A DNA stretch of 43,461 nucleotides from a virus. The notes beneath the pieces were generated by a model. That model made no database searches. It was not told the origin of the DNA and saw only the letters and a list, made by a program, of their open reading frames with translations. The DNA is taken from positions 1 to 43,461 of IMG/VR virus record IMGVR_UViG_3300034066_000800, one strand, 5' to 3'. The position numbers and the translations under genes are program-made. Positions 1 through 43,461 of the stretch are shown here, piece by piece; position 1 is the first letter of the stretch, and the number at the start of each line of letters is the position of its first letter.

Positions 1-2285
1 GGAACTAATAGACTGGTCATGACGTTGTACGTATTTCGTGCTGTATCGTGCAGCCACCAATCCTCAACACCCACAGAACTGTTCTTGAATAGAATCCACC
101 TCGGTCTAAACCCGGTATAAACAAACGGCCCATCTGCGCTGGCATTGCCGGTGTAGCTGCCGAAAGAAGAGTACCCGGTTACTGGGGCGAAGCAGTAGGC
201 GACGAAGGTGGCAGATGAACCATTAAGATCAATTCCAACAGTAAATACAGAAGATGTGGGCAAACTTCCAGACGTACCTCCAAAAGTGGTGTTAGCTGCC
301 CCTCCATAATTTTTTGCACTCGATAAATTAAGTGCAATATAATCATTAGCAGCAAAAGTGCCATGCCAAGAAATCCAGTTATTTGCTGTATCCCTACGTT
401 TAGTTATAATAAACTGGGGTGCTACTCCAAGTCCGTGCCCTATTGTGACATTACCAGATCCATTACCCGTGTAAGTAACAATCGAGAACCCAGCACTTGC
501 ATTAGCCCTCACCTGACTAGAGATGGAGCCTTGTGTGTTCGTGACGGTGGAGCTGCCGGCGTCCCAGCACCAGGCGACGTAAGTATCGTTTAATCCATTT
601 GTGTGAAAATAGTCGAAGGGACCTGTGCCGGATTTGGTTAAGCTAAATCCAGTCAATGAGACGCCGCTAACATACCCACGATCGTCAGTAGCGCCTGCTC
701 CACCTTCTGTGGTAGTTGAGTTGCTTGAAAGCTTTTTGCCTGTGGTGAACCCACGCACAGAGTCCTGCAATACGTGATTAAAACCTTGAGCGTTAGACCT
801 ATTTTTTATCCAGATGAGATCACTTTCAAACCCCAACCCCGAGATCGTCTGCGTGCCGCCATTGCCCGTGTAGAGCTTCACATCCATCACCGTGCTCGGG
901 TTCACGATGGTGGGTGCCGGCAGGTTTGCCGTGCAGAGCGCCTTGAAGCCGCTGGGGGCGGTGTAGGCGAAGGGGCGTTGGCCGAAGTTCCACGCGCCCG
1001 AAGCCGTAGCGTCAGTACGAATTACAGGGAACCATGTGCCAGTAAGTCCACTAAAGGCCGTACCCTGAGATACGCCATTTTTATAAAAGACAAGTGTTCC
1101 GGCATCTAGGTCAAGGGCAACTCCAATGACATCACCATTGGTAAAAGATGCGCCGTATGCGCTTTCGGTCAAAGTTGCACCATTAAATTTGTTGCCGTTG
1201 TGATGAAGGTAGATGCGAATGCCCGCAAAAGTTGCACCACTCTCAAGCGGATTGTCTGAAATGCCAGGACCGTACAGGTTGGAAGTGCCTGAAGGGGTGC
1301 TAGTTAGAGTGGTTTCCCAGTACCATTTGCCGCTTGACACACCAATCGTTCCATAACGATGTGTGCTATTTACTGTTGAGCTGTAATCTAGATTGCCATT
1401 GGCAAGTATGCCATTTGAGCTGCCGCTGAGCGGATTCAACGTGCAGTAATTCCCCCGCACCTGCCCCCCACTTCCCGTATCAACCTCGCTGCCGTTGACG
1501 GGAACGTCTACGAGGCTGTCGTTGCCTGCACCGGCGGTGACGCTGAGATTGTTTGGCGTCCAATTGTTGCTGCCGGCGGCATCCTTGCCCAGCGTGGTGG
1601 CGGTGGCTGCGGAGTTATCCGCGAAGGTCAGGCGGAACCCGTTGGTGCCGTAGGTGCCGGTGTACGCCTTAGGCACCCACACGCCGGTGGTGGCGGAGAA
1701 CTCACCAAAGCTGGTGGGGTCTAGCGCTTGGCCGTCGATGAAGTGGATGTCGGCTAGGTAAAGTGAGGCGTAATACTGGTTGTCGTATCCACCGCCGATG
1801 TAGTGAGTATTTGTGGAGTTGATGTTCCAGTCTTGGTTGGCTGGGTAACTGGCGGTGTCGAAGACTGTTACTTGTGTTCCATTGACGTAGAGCTTGACAC
1901 GGTTACTGGCCGTTGATTGAGTTACATCAACAGCAAGGCAGATGTGAAGCCAGGCAGAGGGATCCCTGTAAACAGGCGTAGTAACAAGCTGAAAGTTGAA
2001 GCCTGTTGTGTAGTTGTAAAACCAGAGCTTGTTGTTTGCGTCGAACTCTAGAGCGGTTGAATCAAGTGGGCTAGCAGCAAAGGCGTTAAACAAGCCGTAG
2101 CGAACGCCCAGCCCGCTTCGCTTCACCCACCCCGCCCAGGTCCACGTCTTGCGGTTGCCGGCTGATGCGGGGGTGCGGCTGAGAAAGGCCGAGTCGGGTG
2201 CGTTGAACCGCAGCGAACGGCTGATGCTGTACCCACCAGCACCAGCAGGAGCGCCAAGCAGCAGGCTGTTGTTGAGCACGCTCAT
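1..2285 (-). CDS. Tail fibre / receptor-binding protein, 5' portion (allele A; runs off left edge)
   Basis: The frame is open from an ATG at 2285 to the window edge, 761 codons without a stop; I read it through by hand. The ATG overlaps the stop of the upstream fibre gene (ATGA), so the two are translationally coupled. Domains seen: residues about 20-200 look like a concanavalin/LamG-type jelly roll (WTWAGWVKRSG, FIDGQALDPTSFGEF). Residues about 300-430 look like a SPRY-type fold (KWYWETT, VIGVALDLDAGTLVFYKNG). From about 450 onward it resembles a phage fibre repeat module also present in the gene at the right edge. The last part (positions 1-900) is visibly AT-richer than its surroundings, which fits a recently exchanged host-range module. 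The C-terminus lies outside the window. Role inferred: adsorption to the host surface. Confidence 0.85.
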   Translation of the reverse strand, partial: MSVLNNSLLLGAPAGAGGYSISRSLRFNAPDSAFLSRTPASAGNRKTWTWAGWVKRSGLGVRYGLFNAFAASPLDSTALEFDANNKLWFYNYTTGFNFQLVTTPVYRDPSAWLHICLAVDVTQSTASNRVKLYVNGTQVTVFDTASYPANQDWNINSTNTHYIGGGYDNQYYASLYLADIHFIDGQALDPTSFGEFSATTGVWVPKAYTGTYGTNGFRLTFADNSAATATTLGKDAAGSNNWTPNNLSVTAGAGNDSLVDVPVNGSEVDTGSGGQVRGNYCTLNPLSGSSNGILANGNLDYSSTVNSTHRYGTIGVSSGKWYWETTLTSTPSGTSNLYGPGISDNPLESGATFAGIRIYLHHNGNKFNGATLTESAYGASFTNGDVIGVALDLDAGTLVFYKNGVSQGTAFSGLTGTWFPVIRTDATASGAWNFGQRPFAYTAPSGFKALCTANLPAPTIVNPSTVMDVKLYTGNGGTQTISGLGFESDLIWIKNRSNAQGFNHVLQDSVRGFTTGKKLSSNSTTTEGGAGATDDRGYVSGVSLTGFSLTKSGTGPFDYFHTNGLNDTYVAWCWDAGSSTVTNTQGSISSQVRANASAGFSIVTYTGNGSGNVTIGHGLGVAPQFIITKRRDTANNWISWHGTFAANDYIALNLSSAKNYGGAANTTFGGTSGSLPTSSVFTVGIDLNGSSATFVAYCFAPVTGYSSFGSYTGNASADGPFVYTGFRPRWILFKNSSVGVEDWWLHDTARNTYNVMTSLLV
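934..1060. repeat. 127-bp exact repeat, internal copy (matches the right edge)
   Basis: Compared base by base, 934-1060 equals 43335-43461 at a constant offset of 42401. Immediately to the left the two copies differ (bases 933, 927 and 915 versus 43334, 43328 and 43316), then diverge strongly. The repeat encodes the end of the SPRY-like domain and the following linker, roughly residues 409-451 of the fibre, in the same frame in both copies. Confidence 0.95.
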
Positions 2286-5200
2286 TTCACGTCCGAGATC
2301 AGGCGAGCGGTGATGCGGGTGGCCGATTCGACGTAGTAGGCGATCACGTCCACTGCGCTGGCCGTTGTCGTGAGTGTAGGCGCAGTTCCGCCAGGCCATT
2401 TCCAGCTACTGCCCCAGGCCGCCGTCCGCGAGCCGGTGCCGTCCTGCGTGATCACGATCGTGCCCGACTGGCCGGCCGTGAGGTTGCTCGGGTTGGCCAG
2501 CGTCCGGTTGCCGCCGAGCGTCACGCTGAAGTTGTTGCCGGCCGCGAAGTCCGGCGTGATCGTCGCGCCATCTGTGAGCGCCACCACGCTGCCGCGCTGT
2601 GCTGCCGTGAAGCTCTGCGCTGTCGCCAGTGCCGCATAGCCCGAGATGGTCTGGCCGGCCGCGAAGGTGATCGCGCCGGTCATGGTCCCGCCAGTCCTTG
2701 ATAGAGCAGCGTTCGCCAGGTCGAAGGCCGACTTGACCGCGTTCGGGGTTGCGGCTGTCGAGGTGCTGGTGCTGCTGGTCGAATCGGTCAGCTGCACCAC
2801 GCCCACCACGCTGGTGGTGCCGGCCACAATCTTGCTGCCGCTGATCGCAGCGCCCGCTGCAATGTCGGCGTTCACGATCGCGCCGGAGAGCACCAGCGTG
2901 CCGTCTGCGTTCGGCAGGTAGATCAGGCGGTCTGCAGTCGGATCAGCGGCCAGCAGCTTGGTTTCGTTTGCGTCGTCGGTGCTGCCCTCAAACACGAGCC
3001 CAACGTTGGCGCCGAGCGTCACGTCCGCTGTGAAGGTGCCGCCAGCCCTGGGCATGGCAGCTGCAGCCAGGTCATAGGCCGCCTTCACCGCCGTGGGTGT
3101 GGCAGCCAGCACGGAGCTGGTGGTGCCGGTGCTGTCGCTCAGCTGCACCACGCCAGCCACGCTGGTGCTCGCCGATGCCACGCTGATCGCAGGCGTGGTG
3201 GTGCCATCAGTGACCGAGATGGCGCCGGAGCCGGACACGCTGGTGACGGTGCCCACGTAGTCGGCGCCCCACTCAAGGCCAGTAGCTGCAGCGCTGTTGG
3301 CGCGCAGCACTTGGCCGTTGGTGCCCACGCCGAGCTTGCTCAGCGCGGTGCTGCTCGAGGCCGCCAGCAGATCACCCTTCGTGTAGGTGGTATTGCCGGT
3401 GCCGCCCTTGCTGGCCAGCAGCGTGCCGCTGGTGATGTTGTCGGCGTTGCGGCATTCATTCGACACCTCCTCGAGCGCCGCCTGCACGTTGGTGGCGGAG
3501 ATGTTGGCGGCCGGCGAGAAGCTGACGTTGTTGGCCGACTGCGCCACGAACGTGGACGACACATCGATCACGGTCCAGCTGGACCCGTTGCTCAGCAGCA
3601 GGTCAGGCGGTGCCAGTGCAACGGTCGGTGCCGGTGCTGTGCCGGTGCCGCTGATCGACACCACCACGTAATAGCCGTTGTTGCTCGAGCTGGCGGAAGG
3701 CAGCGCGTTACCGACCGTCAGACCGATGGCTGAGCCCTCGGTGGTGACGGTTGCGATCTGGTTGGTGCTGGCGTCATAGGTGCCGGCGAAGATCACCGAA
3801 CCGGCCGAGATGCCAAGCGGCTGCCAAACGTTGCCGTCCCACAGGAAGAACGATTCGTCGAGCGGGTTGAAGAAGATCTGGCCGATAAAGTCGGCGGTGG
3901 GCAGCGCTTCGCCGAACTTCGCGGTGGAGTAGTTGGCAAGCTTGGCGCCGGTCACCGCGTCGTCGGCGATCAGCGCTGTCGCGAAGGTGCCGCTGGTGAT
4001 CTTGCTGGCCGGCAGCGCAGGGATGTCGGTATCCGCCAGCGTGGTGCCAGCCGTGACGTGCCCCTGCGCGTCCACCGTCACCTTGGGGTAGGTGCCAGCG
4101 GTGGTGCTGTTGCTGTGGTTCAGCGTGCCGCTGCTGACCGACAGGCCAGTGCCGGGCTGGATGATGCCCTTGGTGCTGCCGGTGGCGTCCGGCAGATCGC
4201 CAGGCACCAGCGCACGGAAGGTCGGCGCTGCGTCAGATCCTGTAGTCGGACCAGCGAACACCCGTGCTGCGCTCTGCGTGTCGAGCGTGGTGGTGATCGT
4301 GGCGCTGTAGTTGTCGGGGTAGGCAACCGAGAACGACAGTGGGGTGCTGTCGCTGAAACTGATCGTGCCGAGCGATGCTTGGCGCACCCAGCTGGTGCCG
4401 TCCCAGGTGTATTCGATGCCGGTGTTGGTGTTCAGCCACTGCTGGCCGATGAACGCGCCATCGCCGGATGGCGTGGAGGCAGCGACCACCGCAGCGGACT
4501 GATCCGCCAGCTTGGCGGCCGTGATCGCGTCATCAGCCACCTTGCCGGTGGTGACAGCGCCAGTGCCGAGCTTGGCTTCAACGACAGCGCCGCTGGCGAT
4601 AGTGGCCGCGAACGATCCGGTGCCGGAGCCTGTCACATCACCGGTGAGGGTGATCGTTTGGTCGCCGGTGTTGGTGCCGGAGCTGGTGCCGCTGTGGGTG
4701 CCGGAGAAGGTGCCGGACTGCGTGGCGAGCGTGCCAAGGCCAAGCGTGGTGCGCTGTGCTGCAGCGTCGGCGTCGTCGAGCAGCGCACGGCCTGCTGCGG
4801 TGCAGGGGATCTCCTCAACATCACCGGAGCCAGCGGTGCTGCGGCCGAGCAACACGTTGCTGCTGCTGGTGTCCTGCAGCTTGGCGTAGGTGACGGCGCC
4901 ATCAGCCAGCGCTGCCGTGCCGAGGTTGCTGGCCTTGGCGGTGGTGACGGCACCATCCGCCAGCTTGGCGGTCGTGACGGAACCATCCGCCACAGCCGGG
5001 GCGATCGCGCTGTAGGAGCCGGAGCGGTAGATCTGCAGCTCGCCGGTGCTGCTGTTGACCCAGCCGCGGCCGTCGAAATTGTCAGAAACGGGCGCCGAGG
5101 CGCTGATCGCCACTGAGCTGCTGTCGGCAAGCTTCGCTGCGGTGACGGCATCGTTCGCCAGTGCGGCGGTGCCGAGCTTGGTGGTGCTGGTCTGATCCAG

Positions 5201-5374
5201 CTTGTCGAGATCGATCGAGGCGGCATCGATCAGATCGAGGCCGGCATCCACCAGGTCCTTGGTGGTGACCTTCTTCGTCTGCGATGCCGAAACGTCAGCA
5301 ATGGGCAGCACGTCGGTGGCTGCCACCGAGGCCTTCGGCAGGGCTGTGAGCTGGGTTATGCGCTGGTCAGCCAA
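2282..5374 (-). CDS. Large tail fibre / tail-fibre-like structural protein (1030 aa)
   Basis: Low-complexity Ala/Thr/Ser/Gly-rich protein with many copies of a degenerate AVTxAKLAD unit (for example about residues 75-140 and 265-285) and GTxSGTNTGDQT stretches, typical of trimeric phage fibres. The N-terminus (ITQLTALP, then LPIADVSASQTKK) is a form I associate with cyanophage tail proteins and probably forms the virion-anchoring part. It starts with TTG at 5374, supported by a GGAGG about seven bases upstream. Its stop overlaps the ATG of the next fibre. Role inferred: side or tip fibre in host recognition. The exact attachment partner cannot be told from sequence. Confidence 0.85.
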   Translation of the reverse strand: MADQRITQLTALPKASVAATDVLPIADVSASQTKKVTTKDLVDAGLDLIDAASIDLDKLDQTSTTKLGTAALANDAVTAAKLADSSSVAISASAPVSDNFDGRGWVNSSTGELQIYRSGSYSAIAPAVADGSVTTAKLADGAVTTAKASNLGTAALADGAVTYAKLQDTSSSNVLLGRSTAGSGDVEEIPCTAAGRALLDDADAAAQRTTLGLGTLATQSGTFSGTHSGTSSGTNTGDQTITLTGDVTGSGTGSFAATIASGAVVEAKLGTGAVTTGKVADDAITAAKLADQSAAVVAASTPSGDGAFIGQQWLNTNTGIEYTWDGTSWVRQASLGTISFSDSTPLSFSVAYPDNYSATITTTLDTQSAARVFAGPTTGSDAAPTFRALVPGDLPDATGSTKGIIQPGTGLSVSSGTLNHSNSTTAGTYPKVTVDAQGHVTAGTTLADTDIPALPASKITSGTFATALIADDAVTGAKLANYSTAKFGEALPTADFIGQIFFNPLDESFFLWDGNVWQPLGISAGSVIFAGTYDASTNQIATVTTEGSAIGLTVGNALPSASSSNNGYYVVVSISGTGTAPAPTVALAPPDLLLSNGSSWTVIDVSSTFVAQSANNVSFSPAANISATNVQAALEEVSNECRNADNITSGTLLASKGGTGNTTYTKGDLLAASSSTALSKLGVGTNGQVLRANSAAATGLEWGADYVGTVTSVSGSGAISVTDGTTTPAISVASASTSVAGVVQLSDSTGTTSSVLAATPTAVKAAYDLAAAAMPRAGGTFTADVTLGANVGLVFEGSTDDANETKLLAADPTADRLIYLPNADGTLVLSGAIVNADIAAGAAISGSKIVAGTTSVVGVVQLTDSTSSTSTSTAATPNAVKSAFDLANAALSRTGGTMTGAITFAAGQTISGYAALATAQSFTAAQRGSVVALTDGATITPDFAAGNNFSVTLGGNRTLANPSNLTAGQSGTIVITQDGTGSRTAAWGSSWKWPGGTAPTLTTTASAVDVIAYYVESATRITARLISDVK

Positions 5375-5411
5375 AGCTCAGCCTCCAAGGGCACCACTGC
5401 TAGAGCCCATG

Positions 5412-6287
5412 TTAGTCCTCAGTTTCCTTCAGCAAGAAGTCGAGCGACTGCTCAAGGTTGATGCGGTCGTCGTCCTCCTTGAGGAGGTATTCATCAATGG
5501 AGCCGATCAGCAACCTGATCTCTCCGGTGGTCACGAAATCGATCGTGCAGTTGATGATATCGCCCGCGCGTACTTCAACGCCGGCCTTTGTCACCATCGC
5601 GTCGAATTGGTAGAAGACGTTATTAACGCCAGCATCGACTGACTTGTCGGTGAGGTAGAGCGCGCAGTCGAAGCCACTGCCGAGCTCAAGGCGCTGGATC
5701 AGCTGCAGCATCAGCAGCGGCGCTTCTGTGGTGCCGGCCGTCGTGTAATCAAAGGCGCAGGTGATCGAGCCACTGCCCGACAGCAGGCCAGCGCTGTAGA
5801 GCTGGCGGAACTTGTCGTTCAGGCTGGTGGTGTCGATCGCCTCGCGATCGGTAGCCAGCGTGTAGTCGATGACGTTGCCCAGCACGCTGTAGGACACGTC
5901 GCGCACGCGGCACTCAATCGGGATCGGCGCACCGGTGAACTGGTAGAGCGCCAGCTCATTCGCGCGCGTGTTGTTGACCGCATCCTGGAAGGTGCGGAAA
6001 AAGCGCAGGCCACCGGCTGCGTTCACGTTCACGTAGGCGGAGATGCCGCTCTCCACCGTGCCGCTGCTCCATGCAGCACCGGTGAAACAGACCAGCCCGC
6101 GGGCGTCGGTGGTGTTGATGTCCACTTTGTCGCCGGTCAGCAGGTTGTCGCCTGCACTGTCGAAGCTCAGCCGGTTCAGGCTGGTGTTCACGTCGGCAGG
6201 ATCGATCTGATCCTGCAGCGCGCTGATCAGCACCGAGGTGGCACGCCTCAGCCTGACGTTGCCCTTGGTGCCGAGGAAGAAGGTCAT
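5412..6287 (-). CDS. Distal tail structural protein, unknown function (291 aa)
   Basis: I do not recognise a named family. The protein is soluble, without membrane segments, and rich in beta-type sequence, with an acidic C-terminus (LLKETED). It starts MTFFLGTKGNVRLRR and lies between the tail hub and the fibre genes. Its ATG overlaps the stop of the preceding gene (ATGA, 6284-6287), so the pair is probably made in step. Position and composition suggest a baseplate or distal-tail component linking the hub to the fibres; that is inference from context only. Confidence 0.7.
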   Translation of the reverse strand: MTFFLGTKGNVRLRRATSVLISALQDQIDPADVNTSLNRLSFDSAGDNLLTGDKVDINTTDARGLVCFTGAAWSSGTVESGISAYVNVNAAGGLRFFRTFQDAVNNTRANELALYQFTGAPIPIECRVRDVSYSVLGNVIDYTLATDREAIDTTSLNDKFRQLYSAGLLSGSGSITCAFDYTTAGTTEAPLLMLQLIQRLELGSGFDCALYLTDKSVDAGVNNVFYQFDAMVTKAGVEVRAGDIINCTIDFVTTGEIRLLIGSIDEYLLKEDDDRINLEQSLDFLLKETED

Positions 6288-6733
6288 GCGATCACGCCGC
6301 CAGCGATAAAGTCGCCATCAACCGTGAACTGGATCGGTACGGTCACCAGCTCGCCGGTGCTGACGCCAACCTGCGCCGAGGTGATGTAGGCGAAGAACTC
6401 CAGATCATCGGCTGCGTCATCACTGATGCGCAGGCGGAGCTTTACGCGATCGGTCTCGGTGACGGCGCCCACCTTCTGCACCTTGCCGAGCAGTGCGGTG
6501 AACTGCGCCAACGTGGCCGACTCGCCGGCCTCGAGGCGGTAGTAGAGCAGCGTGGCCGAACCGCTGGCGGACTTCAGGCCAGGCGTGAAGGTTGCGGCGG
6601 TGCTATCGATCGCGGTAGTGCTCAGCAGCTCCACGCTGGTCTCAACCGACCAGTCGCGGATCTTCGCCACGGGTTTGTAGGCCGCGCCGTCCCAGAACTC
6701 CAGCTTGCCCGTGCGGCCTGTGTAGAAGCCCAT
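6284..6733 (-). CDS. Tail-tube-fold-like distal tail protein (149 aa)
   Basis: The start MGFYTGRTGKLEFWDG, followed by a VAKIRDWSVETSVELL stretch and a TTAIDS turn, is the pattern of phage tail-tube proteins (a beta-sandwich with a characteristic early WS..T strand). A separate, better placed major tail protein exists at 15711-16646, so this one is more likely a second tube-fold protein at the tail tip. It is followed by an ATGA overlap with the next gene. A 26-base gap separates it from the hub gene upstream. The fold assignment is by motif memory, not by search. Confidence 0.6.
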   Translation of the reverse strand: MGFYTGRTGKLEFWDGAAYKPVAKIRDWSVETSVELLSTTAIDSTAATFTPGLKSASGSATLLYYRLEAGESATLAQFTALLGKVQKVGAVTETDRVKLRLRISDDAADDLEFFAYITSAQVGVSTGELVTVPIQFTVDGDFIAGGVIA

Positions 6734-9700: not shown

Positions 9701-10386
9701 CTCGGCGAGAAGGCCTGGCTGAAGCCGTCCAGATGGTTGTCGCCGATCAGGGTCGGCCGGTAGGCGATGCTGCTGGCGGCCTCGCCGATGCGCGTCGGGT
9801 CGCTCTCATCGCCGCGGATCAGATCAGAGAACCGCAGCGGCCGGTTGGCGCCGAGATACGCCCAGGTCTTGCCGGCTGCCAGCTGACGGATCGGTGTCTG
9901 GCCGAACGCAATCCGGCCGGGTCCGATGCGCTGGATCTCGGACGCGCCGATCACCACCAGCATCTGCATGAACTGGCTGGAGCCCTCGCTATGAACAGCC
10001 GACCACACCAGCGAACTCGCCACGCGCACGCCGCCGGTCGGGTTGTCGTCCACGTTGCAGTAGACGAGGTTTACCGGGTCGCCGTACTTCGCCAGCTCCT
10101 GCTGTGAGTTGAAACCAAACCGCGGGGCGAACACCTGATCACGCCGCTGCCGCTGGTTCTTCTGCTCCATCTCCGGCTTCGGAGCGAGCAGGTAGCTGAC
10201 CGCCTGCAGGATGATGCCGACCACCGCGAGGATGATTGAGATCGGTTCGGCGCGCAATTCCTGCAGCTTCTCCTCACGCGATCGCGTGAAGTCGTGCTGC
10301 ACCGCCAGAAACTCCAGATACTCCTCTTCGGAGACCTTGAGGATCTGGATGAGCTCGTGCTCGTAGGGCAGCAGCTTGCGCGTCAT
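6760..10386 (-). CDS. Tail tip hub protein, lambda J-like (1208 aa)
   Basis: This is the longest protein of the tail, directly after the K-like peptidase gene, as gene J is in lambda. The N-terminus has a hydrophobic stretch (about residues 49-69, ISIILAVVGIILQAVSYLL). A hub-like beta domain follows (residues about 90-370; NLVYCNVDDNPTGGVRVASS, PIPINVVYIDRDEDG). About residues 375-600 (coordinates 9260-8590) are a charged, heptad-rich coiled-coil segment that is AT-richer than the rest. The C-terminal part contains further tip domains (RQVTISALFNQGN, VSRADALEANSVRQTFDL). Expected role: the central hub at the tail end that plugs the tube and carries fibres. Its ATG overlaps the stop of the upstream gene. 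Confidence 0.82.
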   Translation of the reverse strand: MTRKLLPYEHELIQILKVSEEEYLEFLAVQHDFTRSREEKLQELRAEPISIILAVVGIILQAVSYLLAPKPEMEQKNQRQRRDQVFAPRFGFNSQQELAKYGDPVNLVYCNVDDNPTGGVRVASSLVWSAVHSEGSSQFMQMLVVIGASEIQRIGPGRIAFGQTPIRQLAAGKTWAYLGANRPLRFSDLIRGDESDPTRIGEAASSIAYRPTLIGDNHLDGFSQAFSPSTMTRFGVFAPIPINVVYIDRDEDGREKDAPLGVEISGLESYWPLNVLNDARPTVPIGQRMTLIFRQIGSGGSDTGRAAKELRRTLSSYIDAASTYKLGSAKFRVAAPIKNVELEDGAMRVSMECIEAGICPIEDYGTEDFKKNGREAQREIIQLQGEVETLNDQLLRNESILKSGVGSGISSKLSEIDSLIAQIEDLRDHRWTAGELDSIVNDDGDIFDDRINPFAQRVLNTRQSRDDERNQIEEWQEEISAERKKNNTNQAFIDRRRQWIREARVRIATLSKRLRNQQSKLDWAIREYGFNTPKGGTLREDRKVLLRRQSRLQKELAELYADANNLDLNAMAARDANLRSQIATKNDRIGFLQRYLENPNSWNDYFNTKCLVKMEEAGYETITECRVVDFALKAKVFKRIQGRAPKYGKEKVERFRDSDNGTKVRAAFFWLRYRRTGAEWSRLPYIFAVRRGADVDNFMSLKFIAGDNIGNWQFRFDPIAEPAAEMQFHGFADFAYIENSGDVQIIPGPAGGQFTFLGSVRARQGLKPPINVNPYEVDEWGLFSMRSDTQTSFSFEGGPEFSISAVTEQRIETFNNYPNLYSGLTLLGFNAYSGQGIQDLRSLSVFTLEGKKLRRLRDDGTYPSQPDGSSSYAPDIFLDTILDGENGIGRFAKIGGVDLKALALAKRFCRQNQLFMDGVIAEQVPWRQFWADVAPFSLLELGRVGGRETLVPAVPCDDAGNITRQVTISALFNQGNILEDSYREEFLDFGSSVQDLIASVIYRDTEIDGVFPRNRSVEVSRADALEANSVRQTFDLSQYVTNRSQAVLFGKLLCNQRRHIRRAIEFSTFPTDSVLEPGSYIYVAIGENQWDQVSTGVVEPGGVLNTPIGQVPNGSGLKALVYQSGSAVVSVDSVTVTNGTASALAPYVGRLFVLGTSITRKRVFRVTEVQMDEDGQVSVKAIEHPCVQSGAETLSLIASFADSGFTIR

Positions 10387-19930: not shown

Positions 19931-21425
19931 TATCGTTCGCTACTGCTGCGTTACCGGCCGGCACCACATCGGCGCTGGGGTCGGTGTCGAACTTCAGGTC
20001 CAGCTGCTCGGCATCGTCCAGCTCCTGCCGGCGTGCGCGCATCAGCTCCTCGAGGTCGCCGCCCTGCTCCGCGACCACCTCACTCAGGGTCTTGAAGCCG
20101 TTGCGCACCGCCAGCGCGTAGGCCTCCACCTCCTTGGCAGGGTCCACCCATGCCCAGCCGCGCGGCATCCACCGCACCGCCTTGTAGCGATCGGCCTGCA
20201 GCTCGTAGTTCGGCAGCGGCAGCGCACCGCTCAGCACGGCCATGTCGAGCCAAGCATCGAACACCCGCTGGTGCAGGTTCTCGATCAGCCAGTTCTGCAG
20301 GATGCGCCAGTGGTCGCGGTCCTCCAGCAGCGAGAGCCGGCTGCTCGAGTAGTTGGTCTGGCTGAAGTCGCGGCTGATCGTCTCGTAGCTGCAGCCGACA
20401 CCGGCCGCCATTGCCCGCAGCATCGCCCGCAGGAACGGCTCGAACTGCCCATCCGGGGCATCCAGCTGCGGCACGCTCACCGACTCGCCGGGCGCCAGGT
20501 ACTTGAACACGCCGGGCTCGAAATTCGACACCCGCTCGCCGTTCATCACCTCATCGCCCTGCAGCTCGCCCTCGGGGCTGGTGATGAAGCCCATCAGCGC
20601 GGAGCTCGCGCGCGCGCGCACCACCTCGGCCTGCTCATAGCCCTGCAGGTGATGCAGCCGCTGGATCGCGCTGGCGAACCACGTCACGCCGCGAGTCTGC
20701 CCCGGCCGCTCCATCCGGTAGAGGTGGATCACCTCCTCGGCCGGCACGCGCTTGTGCCGCTGCGTCGAGATCTGCTGGTTGCTGAACTGATAGTCGCCGG
20801 GGTGATAGGCGAGGAAGTGATACGCCACCGGGCGGCCCCAGGTGTCCACCTCCACGCCCATCCTGATTTCATTGCCCTGCTGGCTGCGGCCGTTGAGCCC
20901 GTCATCCAGCAGATCAGCCTCGAGCACCTCGATCGCCAGCGGCACGCTGCTGCCGCCGAACGGCTGCTTCACCAGTCGCACGAACACCTCGCCCGACTCG
21001 GCGCAAGCCCGCACCACCAGCCGCTCGATGTCGTGGAACGTCAGCTTGCCGCCGGTGTGGCAATGCCGCGCCTTCGTCCACTGGCGCCATGCCTGCTCAA
21101 TCTGATCGTTGATGCCACCATCCAGCCGGCCGCCGCGCAGCATCCGCACCTGCGACTGGAACGGGATGCCCTGCCCCACCACGTTGCCCTCGATGGCACG
21201 CAGCGCCTGGCGCGCATAGTCGTTGTCGCGGCACAGCTGCCGTGCCCGATCGCGCAGCTTCTGCGCCGAGCCGTACACCTCGCTGTCCGCGCTGGTGTTG
21301 CCCGTCACCCAGTCAGCCGTCAGCCGCGAGAACTTCGCGCCTTCATACATCCGCCGCCGCGGTGCCTTCACCGGTTCCGGTGTGCCGCGCTGCAGCCAGC
21401 CCAGAATTGCGCTGCGGACGCCCAT
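19887..21425 (-). CDS. Portal protein, lambda B family (512 aa)
   Basis: Typical length and order (terminase, connector, portal). The sequence shows the lambda-type portal pattern: RDNDYARQALRAIEGNVVG near residue 70, GEVFVRLVK near 155, GVTWFASAIQRLHHLQGYEQ near 260, and the clip/crown region YSSSRLSLLEDRDHWRILQN near 370. The dodecameric portal forms the DNA entry and exit vertex and anchors terminase and the connector. Its stop overlaps the start of the protease-capsid fusion by 44 bases and its start touches the preceding gene at 21425. The C-terminus is acidic and probably flexible. Confidence 0.9.
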   Translation of the reverse strand: MGVRSAILGWLQRGTPEPVKAPRRRMYEGAKFSRLTADWVTGNTSADSEVYGSAQKLRDRARQLCRDNDYARQALRAIEGNVVGQGIPFQSQVRMLRGGRLDGGINDQIEQAWRQWTKARHCHTGGKLTFHDIERLVVRACAESGEVFVRLVKQPFGGSSVPLAIEVLEADLLDDGLNGRSQQGNEIRMGVEVDTWGRPVAYHFLAYHPGDYQFSNQQISTQRHKRVPAEEVIHLYRMERPGQTRGVTWFASAIQRLHHLQGYEQAEVVRARASSALMGFITSPEGELQGDEVMNGERVSNFEPGVFKYLAPGESVSVPQLDAPDGQFEPFLRAMLRAMAAGVGCSYETISRDFSQTNYSSSRLSLLEDRDHWRILQNWLIENLHQRVFDAWLDMAVLSGALPLPNYELQADRYKAVRWMPRGWAWVDPAKEVEAYALAVRNGFKTLSEVVAEQGGDLEELMRARRQELDDAEQLDLKFDTDPSADVVPAGNAAVANDNGTDNPDTTDGSIA

Positions 21426-22015
21426 CAGAACCTCACGAACAGGTTGTGTGGGCTTCCGAGCCCATTTGCGACCATTGTGGCCGCCTGTTCGCGCTTAACC
21501 TCCGCCTTCAGCTTGCTCTCCAACTGGATCAGGTCCGCCATCTCGTACTTCTTCAGGCTGCGCGTGCCGATCTTGTACTCCTGCACCACGCCGCCGGAGA
21601 CGATCGCGCGGATCGCCGCCTGCACTGCCTCGAGATCCTTCTGCGCCTGCGAACGGCCATCGAACGCGCTCGGCTGGCCGGTGTAATCCAGCCCCGGCAG
21701 CACCGTCAGCTGCCCAGCGCCGATCGTCGTCACCGCACCGCCGGTCGTCGCAGTCGCCACCGCCTGCCAGTACCACTGCCCGCTGGCAAAGCCGTCCGTG
21801 GTGGTCTTCGCGATCGTGAACGTCCACCCGCTGCCTGCCGGTGTGCCCGCCACCGTCACGCCGGCCACCGTTGCGCCCTGGTGGTTCGTGTTGGTGCGCA
21901 GGTAGTAGGTCAGCCCGTGGTTGCTGCCATCGATCGCAGCGCCGAGGTTGTCGCGTGACGCCTCATCGCGCCACGTCACCGTGTCACCGGCCCTGATTTG
22001 CGCGGGGATGTTCAC
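21425..22015 (-). CDS. Head-tail connector with W-like C-terminus (196 aa)
   Basis: Lies between terminase large subunit and portal, the place of lambda W. The C-terminal third (FDGRSQAQKDLEAVQAAIRA, then KKYEMADLIQLESKLKAEV) is the helical segment shared by W-like proteins, including the repeated pattern of 'LIQLE..L..E'. The first 130 residues are a beta-rich domain (ATVAGVTVAGTPAGSGWTFT) not present in the 68-residue lambda W, so this is a longer version or a fusion. Expected role: stabilising packaged DNA and joining head to tail. Confidence 0.75.
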   Translation of the reverse strand: MNIPAQIRAGDTVTWRDEASRDNLGAAIDGSNHGLTYYLRTNTNHQGATVAGVTVAGTPAGSGWTFTIAKTTTDGFASGQWYWQAVATATTGGAVTTIGAGQLTVLPGLDYTGQPSAFDGRSQAQKDLEAVQAAIRAIVSGGVVQEYKIGTRSLKKYEMADLIQLESKLKAEVKREQAATMVANGLGSPHNLFVRF

Positions 22016-22019
22016 GGCC

Positions 22020-23894
22020 TCACCAGCTGGTAGCGAACGAAGGCGCTTTGCCCTTGCTCGATCTTAGCTGCGGCTTGCTCGCACCATCAGCTGCCTTCTG
22101 CAGCCTTGCTTCCAGCTGATCCCAGATTGTTCTGCGGTCGTACCGCGAATAGAGCCGATTTAATCCCGCATAGGCATAGACCAGGCAATCCAATGCCTCG
22201 TTACGGGCGCTTGGTTTCTTCACCCATTCCCTCACGGGAAATCCCTTCACGTACCGCAGCGCCTGCTTCTCAGCCGTCAGCTGCTCGAAATACTCCCCAC
22301 CCGTCTGCGCGTGGAAGTGCAGGTAGCCCTCGCCCGGTTCGTTGTGCTTCAACCTGCCGAACAGCGTGGTCTTGATCGTGTCGCCACCCACCGGCCACAC
22401 CTGCGCGCCGCGCTTCAGCGTCTGCCCCTTGGCGTTGATGTCCACCTTGCCCGGCTTGCCGATCGGCGGCTTGCCCCGCTGGCTCTGACCCTTGATGGCG
22501 ATCACGCCCACACCAGCGCGCTCCCGCGCGTACTGGTACACCTCCGCCGTTGCGTGGCCGCCGGAGTCCACCGCCACCACATCCGCCCGCAGCTTGCCGC
22601 CACCGGCGTGCTCCCATTCGTGCAGCACCAGCAGGTCCAGCTGCTTCCACACCTCCGCCTGGCACGGGTCGCCCGCGATCTCTTGGTGATCGATCAGCCA
22701 GCCCTCCTCGCCGCGGCCCCAGCCCCACACGCTCACCGCCAAGCGATCACCGGCTGAGCCGCCACCGCCCTGCACGTCAACACCGATGGTCACCGCCAGC
22801 ACGCCATCCGGCAGCCTGCCGCCCGCATAGGCCTCGCATCGCTCCAGCAGCGTGCTCGCGCTCACCTTGCTGGCGAAGTCCTCCTCCCATGTCTCCGCCA
22901 GCCGGGTGTTCACGAAGCTCTTGAGCATCGGTGCGTCCGACTTCGCCCGCAGGAAGTCGTCCACCATGTCCGCCCAGCTCAGCCAACCCAGCGGGCTGTA
23001 GAGCCCCGACAGCTGGAAGCCGGCCGTCTTGCCATCGCTCGGCGCCGTCGCGCGCCACTCACCCTGCCGCAGCATCGCCGGCTTGTGGATCTCGGCGAAC
23101 CGCTCGTGGCAGTGCTCGCATTCGTAGACCGCTGTGCTCGGGTCGTTCTTCTCCCACTTCAGCTGCGGCCACTTCAGCCACTGCATCGCGCCACAGCTTG
23201 GACACGGCACGAAGAAGCGCCGCTGGTCGCTGCGCTCGTACTCCGCCTCGATCCGTGAGAAGTCCTTCACGGTCGGTGTGCTGGTCAGCAGGATCTTCCG
23301 CCGCGCGAACGTGGTTGCCCGCTTCTCCGCCAGGCTCACCGGATCGCCCTCGCCGTCCACGTCAGCCGGGAAGGCGTCGATCTCGTCCATGAAGATGTAG
23401 CGGCACGGTGTTGAGCGCAGGCCTGTCGCGCTGTTCGCACCCGTCAGCAGCATCATGCCGCCGGGAAACTCCTTCGCGAACATCGTGTTGCCCGAGTCGC
23501 GTGCCCGTGCCGGCGCGATCTTCTCCGTCAGCACCGGCGTCTCGCTGATCAACGACTCCAGCCGCTGCTTGCTCAGCCTCTTAGCCATCTCCACGGTCGG
23601 CTGCACCAGCAGCATCGGTCCCGGTGCGTGCGCGATCACATAGCCCAGCCAGTTGCTCCCGCTCTCCGTCTTCCCAGTCTGCGCTGCGAACATCATCACC
23701 ACCCGCTGCACCGTGCTGGTGGTACTCAGGCAGTCCATCGGCTCACGCAGATACGGGGTCCGGTTGGTGCGCCACGGTCCAGGCTCCGCTGAGGCCTTGC
23801 TGCTCAGCCGCCGGTGCTTGTCCGCCCACACGCTCACCGTCAGCGGCGGCTCCGGCCGCAGCCCGTCCATGAAGGCCGTGCGCCAAACGCTCAT
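22020..23894 (-). CDS. terL: Terminase large subunit, GpA family (624 aa)
   Basis: ATPase and nuclease that packages and cuts DNA. The N-terminal ATPase shows an AAQTGKTE Walker A-type loop (residues 70-77) and an IFMDEID Walker B (167-173), then STPTVKDFS (motif III region). A zinc-ribbon-like pair CPSC (231-234) and CEHC (259-262) is typical of GpA. The C-terminal RNase-H-like nuclease includes LAVTIGVDVQGG and VVAVDSGGHATAEVYQY acidic strands and the closing NEALDCLVYAYAGL. Length matches the family. It overlaps the small subunit by four bases. A GpA-type terminase implies cos-type cutting in lambda, but not in every relative. Confidence 0.95.
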   Translation of the reverse strand: MSVWRTAFMDGLRPEPPLTVSVWADKHRRLSSKASAEPGPWRTNRTPYLREPMDCLSTTSTVQRVVMMFAAQTGKTESGSNWLGYVIAHAPGPMLLVQPTVEMAKRLSKQRLESLISETPVLTEKIAPARARDSGNTMFAKEFPGGMMLLTGANSATGLRSTPCRYIFMDEIDAFPADVDGEGDPVSLAEKRATTFARRKILLTSTPTVKDFSRIEAEYERSDQRRFFVPCPSCGAMQWLKWPQLKWEKNDPSTAVYECEHCHERFAEIHKPAMLRQGEWRATAPSDGKTAGFQLSGLYSPLGWLSWADMVDDFLRAKSDAPMLKSFVNTRLAETWEEDFASKVSASTLLERCEAYAGGRLPDGVLAVTIGVDVQGGGGSAGDRLAVSVWGWGRGEEGWLIDHQEIAGDPCQAEVWKQLDLLVLHEWEHAGGGKLRADVVAVDSGGHATAEVYQYARERAGVGVIAIKGQSQRGKPPIGKPGKVDINAKGQTLKRGAQVWPVGGDTIKTTLFGRLKHNEPGEGYLHFHAQTGGEYFEQLTAEKQALRYVKGFPVREWVKKPSARNEALDCLVYAYAGLNRLYSRYDRRTIWDQLEARLQKAADGASKPQLRSSKGKAPSFATSW

Positions 23895-24424: not shown

Positions 24425-24716
24425 TCAGGTCTCGGATCTAGCGTTGAGTTAACTCAGCCTAGTTAACCCCTTAACGCACGGGGGATCTATACGCTTTGAT
24501 CTCACTCTGAGACCCATTAGGTACCGCTGAGACCTGACGCTAGCCGAAGCGCGGGGTTGCGAAATACCCCCGACCTGGCCGGTGGGGAGGACCCGACCCC
24601 CTCGGCCCAAACCCCTTGCGGCGCAAGGGATCTCAGCGATGGGGGTGCGTGACGATACAACGATGCCGTGATCTCAACATGGGTCGCAGTTGAGAACGCC
24701 TGCGCTGCAAGGGATC
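24425..24716. other. Gene-free region upstream of terminase: putative packaging (cos) region with repeats
   Basis: No credible gene. It holds a 12-bp palindrome (TGAGTTAACTCA, 24445-24456) followed by further TTAAC copies (24463-24467 and 24471-24475). AGGTCTC near 24427 is inverted as GAGACCT near 24530. A hairpin CCCTTGC/GCAAGGG lies near 24617-24633. The 16-mer GCAAGGGATCTCAGCG occurs twice (near 24627 and near 24708, the latter touching the end of the GPZ-like gene). In lambda-type genomes this spot holds cos. The assignment is by position; the cut site itself cannot be seen. Confidence 0.45.
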
Positions 24717-31178: not shown

Positions 31179-32078
31179 ATGACAGGCAGAGAAACAGTGG
31201 TAAGTTGCGTGAGCCTTCGGTACGCGCTGCCTTTGGACAACGCCGCTTATCACCGCCATCCGGCGGTCTCAAAATCACACCTCGATCAGATCGCCCGCAG
31301 CCCGCTGCACTACTGGGCGCGGTATCTGGACCCGAACCGGGTTGAGCCTGAGCCGACGCCAGCCATGCGGCTCGGCACTGCGGTTCACACGCTGACGCTG
31401 GAGCAGGACACCTTCGCCGAGCGCTACGTGGTGGCGCCACAGTTCGATCGCCGCACCAAGGCCGGTAAGGAGGAGTGGGCTGCGTTCGAGGCTGAGGCCG
31501 CTGGCCGTGAGCTGATCAGCGCCGACGATCGCGCGCTGGTGAGCCGCATGGCCGAGGCGGTGTGGACGCACCCTGCTGCCGGTGCGCTGCTGAAGCTGAA
31601 GGGCAAGGCCGAGCACAGCTTCATGTGGACGGACGAAGCGACAGGCCTCGAGTGCAAGTGCCGGCCGGACTGGTTGACGGATGACGGCAGCCTGATCGTG
31701 GACCTGAAGACCACCGAGGATGCGAGCCCGGCTGGGTTCAGGAAATCGATCGCCAACTTCCGCTACCACGTGCAAGCGGCCTGGTATCTGCACGGCCTCG
31801 AGCAGGCCACCGTGCGCCGGCCTGAGGGGTTCATCTTCATCTGCGTGGAGAAGAAGCCACCGCACGCCGTGGCGGTCTATGTGGCCGATGGTGAGATGAT
31901 CGCTGCCGGTGGTGAGCGTGCGCTGCAGGATCTGGAGCGGCTGGCCGAGTGCCGCGCTGCTGGCCGCTGGCCGGGCTACAGCGAGGAGATTGAGCCGATC
32001 GGGCTGCCGGCATGGATGAGGCCGCGGCCGGATGGATCGCTGCCGACCGGAGCGCCAACCGAGATCGAGCTCTACTGA
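31179..32078 (+). CDS. PDDEXK exonuclease, RecE C-terminal/DUF3799-like (299 aa)
   Basis: Double-strand 5'-3' exonuclease partner of RecT. Key residues of the family are visible: RLGTAVHTLTLE (conserved His region, about residue 65), HSFMWTDEATGLECKCRPDW (about 145-165, Glu-x-Lys type and Asp), LIVDLKTTEDA (Asp-x-Lys of the PDDEXK core, about 171-180) and YHVQAAWYLHGL helix. The N-terminal YHRHPAVSKSHLDQIARSPL is the usual SxSxLxxLxxSP start of such proteins. The ATG at 31179 is preceded by a GGGGGA-type site. First gene of the rightward operon, touching the next gene (TGATG). Confidence 0.9.
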   Translation: MTGRETVVSCVSLRYALPLDNAAYHRHPAVSKSHLDQIARSPLHYWARYLDPNRVEPEPTPAMRLGTAVHTLTLEQDTFAERYVVAPQFDRRTKAGKEEWAAFEAEAAGRELISADDRALVSRMAEAVWTHPAAGALLKLKGKAEHSFMWTDEATGLECKCRPDWLTDDGSLIVDLKTTEDASPAGFRKSIANFRYHVQAAWYLHGLEQATVRRPEGFIFICVEKKPPHAVAVYVADGEMIAAGGERALQDLERLAECRAAGRWPGYSEEIEPIGLPAWMRPRPDGSLPTGAPTEIELY

Positions 32079-32221
32079 TGCGGATCCCTTCCTTGGCCAT
32101 CCGTGCGCCCGTGGCGGCGCTGGCCGGCGGCTGGTTCCTGACGGAGCTGTGGCCGATCACCTACTGGCCGGCGGTGGCCGGCTGCCTGTTCATCTACCTG
32201 ACCTTGAGACTTCAACCATGA
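32078..32221 (+). CDS. Small membrane protein between exonuclease and RecT (47 aa)
   Basis: Starts at the ATG overlapping the exonuclease stop (TGATG) and ends overlapping the RecT start (ATGA), so it is tightly coupled on both sides. The sequence, from MRIPSLAIRAPVAALAGG on, has two hydrophobic stretches (about residues 5-20 and 25-43, AVAGCLFIYLTL), suggesting one or two membrane helices. No family recognised. Its presence inside a recombination operon is odd; a membrane anchor or a toxin-like small protein is possible but unsupported. Confidence 0.6.
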   Translation: MRIPSLAIRAPVAALAGGWFLTELWPITYWPAVAGCLFIYLTLRLQP

Positions 32222-32901
32222 GCGAGTCCACAGCACTGACCACGACCGGAGGCAGCGTGTTCTCCGGCATCCAGGCATTCGAGGATGCGCAGCGGATCGC
32301 GAAGGCGCTGGCCAGCAGCACGCTGATCCCGCCGCAGTTCCAAGGGCAGCAGGGCTTCGCGAACTGCCTGGTGGCGCTCGAGATCGCCAACCGGATGCGG
32401 ATGAGCCCGTTCCAGGTGATGCAGAACCTGCATATCATCCACGGCCGCCCGAGCTGGAGCAGCCAGTTCATCATCGGCCTGATCAACGGTTGCGGCCGGT
32501 TCAGCCCGCTGCGCTACGAGATGACGGGCAGCGGCGACAGCCTGAGCTGCTACTGCGTGGCGACGGAGCACGCCAGCGGCAACGACCTGAAGGGTCCGGC
32601 CGTGAGCATGGCGATGGCGAAGAAGGAAGGGTGGGCGACGAAGAGCGGCAGCAAGTGGCAGACCATGCCGGAGCTGATGATCCGCTACCGCGCCGCGGCC
32701 TTCTGGGGTCGGCTGTATATCCCCGAGCTGCTGGTCGGCATCCAGACCGAGGAGGAGGTGGTGGACGTGGAGCCCGTGACGGTGCGCACGGCCGAACCGC
32801 CTGCCAAGTCAGCGGTGGAGCAGCTGAACGCGAAGATCAAGCAACCGGCAGCGGAGCCGGTTGAGGTGGTGGAGGCAAGCGATGCAGATGAAATCTTCTG
32901 A
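32218..32901 (+). CDS. recT: RecT-family single-strand annealing protein (227 aa)
   Basis: Anneals single strands made by the neighbouring exonuclease. The family core is clear: GQQGFANCLVALEIANRMRM (about residues 41-60), QVMQNLHIIHGRPSWSSQFI (about 65-84) and EGWATKSGSKWQTMPELMIR with a following YRAAAFWGR (about 138-165). The C-terminal 60 residues are acidic and variable and end DADEIF. I chose ATG 32218 because it makes an ATGA overlap with the preceding gene and begins the family region soon after. The 3' end overlaps the next gene. Exonuclease plus RecT form a complete recombination pair. Confidence 0.92.
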   Translation: MSESTALTTTGGSVFSGIQAFEDAQRIAKALASSTLIPPQFQGQQGFANCLVALEIANRMRMSPFQVMQNLHIIHGRPSWSSQFIIGLINGCGRFSPLRYEMTGSGDSLSCYCVATEHASGNDLKGPAVSMAMAKKEGWATKSGSKWQTMPELMIRYRAAAFWGRLYIPELLVGIQTEEEVVDVEPVTVRTAEPPAKSAVEQLNAKIKQPAAEPVEVVEASDADEIF

Positions 32902-34883: not shown

Positions 34884-35112
34884 AACAACCGGAGCAATGC
34901 TGCCTTGGCAATGGGCAGACGGACCACAGACCAGCCAGCACGGTGACGGCATCAGCCGGCCGCGGCCGAAGGCGCGCACCCGCGAGTTCCGGCTGATCGT
35001 CTACCCGCAGGGTGCCCAGCCGATGACGTGGATCACGCGCGCCGAGACCAAGCGCCACGCGATCCGCTACGCCGAAGCCCGCTGGCCAGGTGCCGCGGTG
35101 GAGGTGGCGTGA
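34876..35112 (+). CDS. Small phage protein of unknown function (78 aa)
   Basis: The first half is probably disordered (MAETTGAMLPWQWADGPQTS). The second half has a compact domain, FRLIVYPQGAQPMTWITRAE followed by TKRHAIRYAEARWPGAAVEV, a pattern of strand, turn and helix seen in small phage proteins that handle host enzymes, but I cannot name it. It overlaps both neighbours by a few bases and is basic overall. Confidence 0.6.
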   Translation: MAETTGAMLPWQWADGPQTSQHGDGISRPRPKARTREFRLIVYPQGAQPMTWITRAETKRHAIRYAEARWPGAAVEVA

Positions 35113-41602: not shown

Positions 41603-41755
41603 TCAACGGCCCTGCCCGCGATAGCGCCGCTTTCGTTGCGGGTTACGGCTGGTGCCGCTCAGCTTGGTGCGCAGCGAGCGGCCTTGGCGGGTGCGCTTGG
41701 GTGGTCCGGCTTGGTGGTCGATGCGCGCGGTGCCGGTCTTGGCTTTGGCGGCCAT
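41603..41755 (-). CDS. Small very basic protein (50 aa)
   Basis: Begins MAAKAKTGTARIDHQ and ends RNPQRKRRYRGQGR. About one third of residues are Arg or Lys, and a short protein ending YRGQGR is a form I have seen in cyanobacterial phages. Likely disordered and nucleic-acid binding, or a small virion component. Its ATG overlaps the previous stop. No function assigned. Confidence 0.6.
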   Translation of the reverse strand: MAAKAKTGTARIDHQAGPPKRTRQGRSLRTKLSGTSRNPQRKRRYRGQGR

Positions 41756-42228
41756 CAGGCTTCAGGTTCGGGTTCGGGTGCCGGCGCGTAGGGATCAGCC
41801 GGCCATGCAGGGTAGTCGGCGCCGGTGATGTAGGCCGCCAGTTCGGCGGTGTCGGCGGTGGCAGCGATGGCGTCGATCTTGGTGCCGGTGGCGAGGCGGA
41901 TGTCCTCGCGCCAAGTCTTGATCAGAGGGTCAGCTGGTGCGCCGTTGTCAGCCTCGCGGATGATGATCCAGTCGGTCGGCTGCAGCAGTGTGTTGGCGGT
42001 GTGGCGCGTCTGCTGCGTCCACTGCTCCACCAGCTGTGCGTGATCCTTGGGCAGATCTGGTCCCCAGTAGAAGCGCTGATCGTATGGCTCAGGGTCGGGC
42101 TGCTCGGTGATGCCGATTGCCTCACGCTCCTCGGGAGAGGCCAGCCGGAGCCAGTTTGCGGGATAGCTGATGCCATCGTGCTCGAAGGGCACATCAGGGC
42201 TCAGTGGGCGGCCGTCGAGGATGAACAT
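41755..42228 (-). CDS. Tail fibre assembly-like protein (157 aa)
   Basis: Begins MFILDGRPLSPDVPFEHDGI and continues YPANWLRLASPEEREAIGIT. This matches short proteins found directly after cyanophage tail fibres, related in layout to tail-fibre assembly chaperones: an N-terminal beta hairpin, a middle helix with DWIIIREADNG (residues about 85-96) and a Pro/Glu tail. It follows the fibre gene by 58 bases. Chaperone role inferred from place and similarity in form. Confidence 0.7.
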   Translation of the reverse strand: MFILDGRPLSPDVPFEHDGISYPANWLRLASPEEREAIGITEQPDPEPYDQRFYWGPDLPKDHAQLVEQWTQQTRHTANTLLQPTDWIIIREADNGAPADPLIKTWREDIRLATGTKIDAIAATADTAELAAYITGADYPAWPADPYAPAPEPEPEA

Positions 42229-42286: not shown

Positions 42287-43461
42287 TCATCGGGCGCGGG
42301 CGTATTGAAAAGGCGATTCGGCCACAGCAAAATAGATGTAGGTGCCGCCAGATGCGTTATTCACCATACCGGCGTCTCTCCATTTGAAGCCATTAGATAA
42401 AATGTCGAGATTGTATCCAGACGTAAACCCTGATTCAGCAGTGCTCTCGTTTGGCGCCAAGGGAGTTTTGCTTACGTTTGACGAATCCCTGGCGGTGTCA
42501 TACATGGTCCACTGACCTGATGAATCCGTTCGCTTGATCAGAATAAGTTTCGGCCTGAATCCGTTATAGACAAAAACGCCATCTGACGAACCATTTCCGA
42601 CATATGAGCCCATCGAAGAGTACCCGACTAATGGCGCCCAGCAATACGCCACCATGTCGCCACGGTTATTGCTGTTCGTGTTATTCCCAATGGTGCCAAA
42701 CACTGTAGAACTTGGCTCAGAACTGCCCCAATAGTTAGAAGAGGTGATTGCAGCATCAGTTCCGTTAAGGACCAGCAACTTGTCCTTGCCGAGCGAGCGG
42801 TGATACACCACCCAATCAGTGCCAACAGTTCTTGACTTGGCGATGATCAACGAAGGAGCGACGCCTAATCCATGACCCACAGTCGGGGCATTTCCGTATG
42901 TCCAAGTGACCACACTGAACCCCGCACTTGCATTAGCCCTCACCTGACTAGAGATGGACCCAGCGGTATTCGTGACGGTGGAGCTGCCGGCGTCCCACAC
43001 CCACGCCACACGCGCAACGTTGTTGGTGTAGTTGATGTCAGGCTGCGGGCTGCTGGTATTGGCGCCGAGGGTGAAGCCGTCCGAATTGAACGAGACGAAG
43101 CCATCAGTGGTGAACTGCTCGGCTTCGGTGGTGTTGGACTTCAGCGCCCGGCCAGCGCCGCGCACGGTGTCGTAGAGCGCATGGGCAACACCGGTACCGC
43201 GTGACTTCAGCCAGGCGAAATCAGGCGAGAAGCCCAATCCGGAGACAGTCAGGGTGCCAGCGTTAGAGGTGTAGAGCTTGGTGTCGAACACCGTGCTCGG
43301 GTTCACGATGGTGGGCGCCGGCAGGTTAGCCGTACAGAGCGCCTTGAAGCCGCTGGGGGCGGTGTAGGCGAAGGGGCGTTGGCCGAAGTTCCACGCGCCC
43401 GAAGCCGTAGCGTCAGTACGAATTACAGGGAACCATGTGCCAGTAAGTCCACTAAAGGCCG
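42287..43461 (-). CDS. Tail fibre C-terminal part (allele B; runs off right edge)
   Basis: Open to the window edge in the same frame as the copy at 1-2285; the apparent GTG at 43306 is internal. The first 43 codons equal the end of the SPRY-like domain of the left copy. Then follows a fibre module (GLGFSPDFAWLKSRGTGVAH, WDAGSSTVTNTAGSISSQVR, VGHGLGVAPSLIIAKS) homologous to, but clearly different from, the left copy. Two long identical nucleotide stretches remain: 42924-42958 equals 493-527, and 42969-42997 equals 538-566. It ends in PFQYARAR. Joined to 2285-1061 it gives a 799-residue protein. Confidence 0.88.
   Translation of the reverse strand, partial: AFSGLTGTWFPVIRTDATASGAWNFGQRPFAYTAPSGFKALCTANLPAPTIVNPSTVFDTKLYTSNAGTLTVSGLGFSPDFAWLKSRGTGVAHALYDTVRGAGRALKSNTTEAEQFTTDGFVSFNSDGFTLGANTSSPQPDINYTNNVARVAWVWDAGSSTVTNTAGSISSQVRANASAGFSVVTWTYGNAPTVGHGLGVAPSLIIAKSRTVGTDWVVYHRSLGKDKLLVLNGTDAAITSSNYWGSSEPSSTVFGTIGNNTNSNNRGDMVAYCWAPLVGYSSMGSYVGNGSSDGVFVYNGFRPKLILIKRTDSSGQWTMYDTARDSSNVSKTPLAPNESTAESGFTSGYNLDILSNGFKWRDAGMVNNASGGTYIYFAVAESPFQYARAR
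43335..43461. repeat. 127-bp exact repeat, right-edge copy
   Basis: Identical to 934-1060. The match ends precisely at the last base of the window on one side and at a mismatch (43334 A versus 933 G) on the other. This exact length, ending at the contig edge, is the mark of a k-mer-sized overlap in a graph assembly. Confidence 0.95.

Follow-up and report, generated by a model that had tools for sequence, protein, structure and literature searches.

How a single viral contig comes to carry two different C-terminal halves for what looks like one tail fibre is the question raised by the stretch of DNA analysed here, a 43,461-nt IMG/VR virus record (IMGVR_UViG_3300034066_000800) that we refer to in its entirety as the window. 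On the minus strand, a frame opening at the ATG at 2285 runs through a common N-terminal part (1061..2285) and then continues in one of two ways. With allele B (42287..43334, minus strand), a complete fibre tip, the N-terminal half makes a protein of 799 aa with its stop at 42287; with allele A (1..933, minus strand), it gives 761 codons that are still open at base 1, such that A comprises repeats 1 and 2 and the start of repeat 3 of a DUF7483 tip and is without the C-terminal part of the third repeat. The initial annotation had put the divergence of the two versions at residue ~451 and had reported exact blocks of 35 and 29 bp common to both. Counted from the ATG at 2285, the two do part at codon 451, and the blocks were recovered at 493-527/42924-42958 and 538-566/42969-42997, together with a third exact block of 27 bp at 888-914/43289-43315. 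The start of the gene is overlapped by ATGA with an upstream fibre gene bearing Phage_fiber_2 repeats (2282..5374, minus strand), and directly downstream lies a small gene (41755..42228, minus strand) with a weak match to tail fibre assembly/chaperone families (E 0.002).

What connects the two versions is a block of 127 bp. The last bases of the contig (43335-43461, minus strand) are identical to 934-1060 (minus strand) over exactly this length, the match being bounded on one side by base 933 (G) vs 43334 (A) and on the other by the contig end itself; the window holds neither a further copy of the block nor a second repeat pair of this kind. The block covers codons 409-451, that is, the end of the SPRY cassette and most of the island termed I1 below, and represents the assembly-graph vertex at which A and B are joined. 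Its length equals a k that we take, from established assembly practice, to be of the metaSPAdes type. This is the outcome expected when a circle with a side branch is assembled by de Bruijn graph at k=127: the contig end recurs internally for exactly k bases, and on the far side of these the sequences diverge. Judged by this overlap, the contig is a "lasso," composed of a 42,401-bp circle, in which the N-terminal part of the fibre runs on into allele B, and a 933-bp arm with allele A. The record carries the class "linear" in IMG/VR.

Exact end overlaps of 127 bp are also present in 7 of the 20 related records examined, either from end to start, forming circles (G009, G027, G028), or from end to an inner site, forming lassos (G023, G024, G026, G029), and at the lasso junctions the branches are split by a one-base transition at the block edge. 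Several other relatives (G001, G002, G010 and others) run unbroken over the contig join, from the N-terminal part through a B-type tip to the lysis side. Since relatives cross the join and the overlap is exactly 127 bp, the window is a circle opened in the fibre gene. The circular genome that had been supposed is therefore supported by one-piece relatives as well as by an assembly-graph signature common to related contigs. L056, an independent contig from another metagenome, has its first base exactly 127 nt ahead of the position in codon 451 (TGC/TGT) that divides the two alleles. In the circular relative G009, which has a 96% identical 291-aa gene, the cut lies in joint three (I3) of the same tip. 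A scan for contigs sharing the end block of L056 returned L056 alone, and an IMG/VR search among records not very close to the window yielded no contig continuing A past base 1 and no 127-bp block. An excess of relatives' contig ends in the fibre region was considered and judged unconvincing (22 lying up to 6 kb downstream of the 291-aa gene vs 17 upstream). As for the physical ends of the genome, six related records without terminal overlap (G001, G002, G010, G011, G022, G025) have both of their termini in the interval that separates the TerS gene from the gene following it, a probable cos region corresponding to ~24424-24717 of the window (annotated as 24425..24716, no strand assigned). It is thus there, next to the terminase genes at 24.42-24.72 kb, that the real ends probably lie, rather than in the fibre.

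Lassos in relatives also branch elsewhere. The last 5018 bp of G006 (L069-L071) equal 1653-6670 exactly, with 1-1652 set against 35061-36712; this branch falls at the start of the LamG-like part and places one fibre body on two upstream sequences. G023 (L211-L213) and G026 (L220-L222) branch inside the major capsid protein gene at an exact 127-bp joint so that a portion of the capsid gene is present in two versions per contig, those of G023 being 58% and 44% identical to the window's.

Two versions on one contig with an identical joint is also what would be seen if one genome had two fibre genes in tandem that shared their N-terminal half but not their tips, and a repeat beyond the read span would likewise halt assembly at the joint. 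However, exactly one DUF7483 fibre gene is present in each of the 11 related records that span the locus without a break, as in circular G009; two-copy counts are confined to lasso contigs or to genes split over several matches; and a real duplicate would match the assembler's k of 127 by accident only. With one DUF7483 gene per contiguous relative, the tandem duplication that had been offered as the fallback is very improbable, and A and B are better regarded, as first proposed, as alternative C-terminal halves of one gene.

For the coexistence of A and B, and for the linkage of A to this genome, the evidence is the join made by the assembler together with the SPRY cassette end that both share. 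Codons 409-430 are common to A and B (100%), in a segment where relatives have a mean identity of 31-37%, which ties A to the SPRY cassette of this very phage rather than just to a shared island. On this evidence A and B would be carried by otherwise near-identical genomes in one sample. The assembler might instead have joined to this genome an allele from a different co-occurring phage that had recently exchanged the SPRY cassette and island with it. Cassettes do move between phages, and the last 211 bp of A are 89% identical to an 84-kb phage whose similarity is confined, over the 21 kb compared, to the fibre. Yet the identity of the shared 127 bp is complete even across the variable codons 409-430, whereas the remaining sharing of cassettes between lineages reaches only 87-97%, and we consider such a foreign origin unlikely. 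Allele A could come from a sister phage sharing the SPRY cassette.

The domain architecture of the fibre is informative as to why the two versions part where they do. DUF7483 (PF24299) scores well over the Pfam cut-off of 27 in both A (289 bits, E 5e-86) and B (357 bits, E 2e-106), and in both versions the tip is preceded by a SPRY domain according to Pfam. In the numbering of the 2399 frame, SPRY ends at residue 474 and DUF7483 starts at 501, so that the A/B border (codon 451, ~489 in that frame) falls within the linker between them; the suggestion that the border coincides with the SPRY/tip module boundary was correct. Moreover, a number of other phages (L004, L052, L029, L030, L032, L034, L038, L049) encode the N-terminal part and DUF7483 in separate neighbouring genes, divided near codon 455, where A and B also part, and this favours a true module border.

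The DUF7483 tip consists of three homologous ~100-residue beta repeats (hhalign E 1e-15, 8e-14, 4e-10). The AlphaFold model is nearly all beta (mean pLDDT 81, pTM 0.85) and places I2 and I3, the joints between successive repeats, on the predicted closing strand of one repeat, the linker and the opening strand of its successor. Comparison with the PDB gave no fold match of the tip at E<=0.001 and no sequence match, and the strong fold matches in a viral library are one DUF7483 protein and unnamed viral proteins, which consequently add no function. The fibre does not conform to a T4-type gp38 adhesin, SPRY and DUF7483 being the only domains found and the PDB offering no match. Among the matches listed, DUF7483 fibres are present in pelagiphages, cyanophages and Roseobacter phages; the name DUF7483 did not occur in the papers searched. 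In the reading we favour, the gene product is a single fibre of receptor-binding type, built of a LamG-like part, SPRY and three DUF7483 repeats, all of them variable and joined at islands. One related record, G012 (L118-L120), has at 20776-24129 a wholly different fibre C-terminus without a DUF7483 match, despite a 97% identical neighbouring 291-aa gene.

A codon alignment of the fibres resolves conserved islands, N0 (codons 1-58), N2 (175-285), I1 (431-456), I2 (562-592) and I3 (680-712), that alternate with the variable cassettes N1, SPRY, C1, C2 and C3. Islands N0 and N2 and cassettes N1 and SPRY belong to the common N-terminal part. Island I1 (43319..43396, minus strand) forms the joint between SPRY and tip repeat 1 and is ~90% identical in nucleotides among relatives at codons 441-450. 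The joint between repeats 1 and 2 is island I2 (42911..43003 in B, minus strand; A copy at about 480-572), within which lie the 29- and 35-bp blocks identical to A, and that between repeats 2 and 3 is island I3 (42551..42649 in B, minus strand; A copy at about 104-210), where G009 is cut. Between A and B, the cassettes are 39-48% identical in nucleotides, in contrast to 84% in the middle island.

The cassettes of B have different nearest relatives. C1 (43004..43318, minus strand; tip repeat 1) is 87-92% identical to L054/L055/L057 and 48% to A, whereas C2 and C3 of B are only 43-50% identical to these same fibres. C2 (42650..42910, minus strand; repeat 2) is 39% identical to A and at most 52% to every relative. 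C3 (42290..42550, minus strand; repeat 3) matches L056 at 97%, whereas C1 and C2 of that fibre are 43-46% identical to those of B. L054, L055 and L057 are alike among themselves in C1 (88-91%) and C3 (93-95%) but not in C2 (39-41%), and L057 and G009 have N1 (91%) as the only cassette in common. Such incongruent identity between phages is that of a mosaic adhesin, and in a permutation of sites the steps in identity were supported at <=1/2000 in 8 of 9 pairs and at 13/2000 in the ninth.

Base composition and codon usage follow a similar division. In B, GC is 0.61-0.68 in islands N0, N2, I1 and I2 vs 0.48-0.51 in cassettes N1, SPRY, C2 and C3, with the exceptions of C1, which is backbone-like in B (0.62), and I3, which is intermediate (0.52 in B, 0.58 in A). 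The same codon is commoner at conserved residues in islands (p 5e-10), including among distant phages (6e-4), where the codon conservation of I2 and I3 is nonetheless modest (0.45/0.42 vs about 0.31-0.34 expected). Exact runs with B cluster at codons 432-439 and 564-577, and those of >=24 nt gather at I1 in most relatives; L043, the 84-kb phage that over the 21 kb compared resembles the window in its fibre only, has 50 nt exact with B at I1. As far as the alignment of relatives reaches, each tip repeat is a low-identity cassette and the joints are conserved islands of DNA.

One fibre tip in two versions might also be the work of a programmed switch, by which DNA inversion or a diversity-generating retroelement would yield A and B from one genome, and a tyrosine integrase is indeed encoded at 38377-39489. 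A silent copy would, however, be needed elsewhere in the circle and is absent there, and what distinguishes A from B is indels and the replacement of whole segments rather than changes at adenines. Invertible segments of the Mu/P1 type have no counterpart here, as there are no inverted exact 20-mers anywhere in the window, a palindrome at 10262-10301 being the sole inverted pair; nor is there an RVT_1 match in the record that would indicate the reverse transcriptase of a diversity-generating retroelement. Without inverted repeat and without reverse transcriptase, the initial annotation's notion of a switched version of the same gene is not supported insofar as it implies a dedicated switch, and we regard this explanation as exceedingly improbable.

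At the start of the integrase gene (38377), an exact direct repeat of 23-24 bp is found at 38107-38130 and 38358-38381, spaced 251 bp; G001 and G012 contain similar repeats spaced 250-252, and these are possible attachment or regulatory sites. Elsewhere in the window, two adjacent overlapping ORFs on the minus strand (28864-29752) correspond to consecutive parts of the DNA methyltransferase family phrog_363, the gene being either split or frameshifted. Scans for Rfam families and for tRNAs gave no match in the window.

It is therefore likely, in our judgment, that the window is a k=127 lasso contig with two tip alleles of one gene, and that this gene is subject to ongoing, repeat-wise exchange of cassettes by recombination. 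The window encodes candidate enzymes for such exchange; neither these genes nor the make-up of the C-terminal half as three separately exchanged repeat cassettes had been recognised in the initial annotation. A RecE/exonuclease VIII-like nuclease (31179..32078, plus strand; phrog_412, E 8e-107; Pfam DUF3799 PDDEXK) is adjacent to and overlaps a RecT-like single-strand annealing protein (32032..32901, plus strand; phrog_561, E 2e-80; Pfam RecT at 23.0 bits, under the cut-off of 24), an arrangement characteristic of a module of nuclease plus annealing protein, and the RecT-like protein is conserved in relatives. Red-beta has a minimal perfect pairing of 23-27 bp (PMC3945230), and the exact blocks shared by A and B, of 27, 29, 35 and at least 127 bp, lie above the published minimum for Red-type annealing. 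It is plausible to envisage two such phages meeting in one cell, where the RecE/RecT-like system, or another homology-dependent pathway, would anneal ends at near-identical islands, with the result that one or several tip repeats would be swapped in frame. A and B would then be the product of one exchange event with its border in island I1. That the RecE/RecT-like pair performs the island exchange is the simplest account of these genes and blocks, and the A and B tips would presumably bind different receptors. A more far-reaching proposal, which we put forward only tentatively, is that of a combinatorial adhesin, in which the three tip repeats, the LamG-like part and SPRY are independently exchangeable and the joint DNA is kept near-identical, even across unrelated phages, as an annealing site for the recombinase.

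Exchange at conserved sites has precedents. In T-even phages, as cited in the relevant passages of PMC7468147 and PMC12529663, adhesin segments are exchanged at conserved motifs. The resemblance lies in hypervariable segments between conserved motifs, at an adhesin locus, with exchange at the motifs; compared with the adhesins treated there, the present fibre belongs to an unrelated protein family, in a siphovirus with integrase and RecE/RecT-like genes, and its variable segments are whole homologous ~100-residue beta repeats along with the LamG-like and SPRY parts. Coexisting and shuffled module variants have been described in the pan-genomes of cryoconite phages (Bellas 2020, PMC7468147), and variable host-recognition metaviromic islands in marine phages (Mizuno 2014, PMC3909814). 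There too, alternative host-recognition modules coexist on near-identical genomes and shuffle independently, but those variants are at the level of genes or regions, whereas exchange is here resolved to single repeats within one protein. C-terminal swaps have been described for many receptor-binding proteins (PMC10684548), and closely related phages with a near-identical N-terminal part and alternative C-terminal parts are found in that work as well as here; its tail-fibre example swaps non-homologous C-terminal domains, in contrast to the divergent homologues exchanged repeat by repeat at DNA islands in our case. Rad52-like phage recombinases are capable of relaxed homologous recombination (De Paepe 2014, PMC3945230), and the RecT/Red-type annealing of diverged phages via short identical stretches described there is akin to what we propose for the putative RecT-like protein of this phage. 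The principle of exchange is accordingly known; the novelty lies in the fibre family and in tracing exchange down to individual repeats.

The capsid protein is closest to that of Synechococcus siphovirus S-LBS1 (60%), a phage of 34.6 kb that encodes an integrase and a low-GC tail fibre (PMC6157547). S-LBS1 is the closest cultured relative by this protein and has the integrase and the low-GC tail fibre in common with the window phage, though it is not among the best 30 DUF7483 matches listed. The locus provides, at the level of sequence, a case of host-recognition diversity in phages related to freshwater Synechococcus siphoviruses, one that reveals the site of exchange in the protein, the unit of exchange (one structural repeat) and candidate enzymes. 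It also illustrates how a virus record classed as "linear" can in fact be a circle, broken precisely where the population varies, so that end-to-inside overlaps of length k could be mined for such sites. If the combinatorial reading were true, the phage population would hold a repertoire of tip combinations in place of a few alleles.
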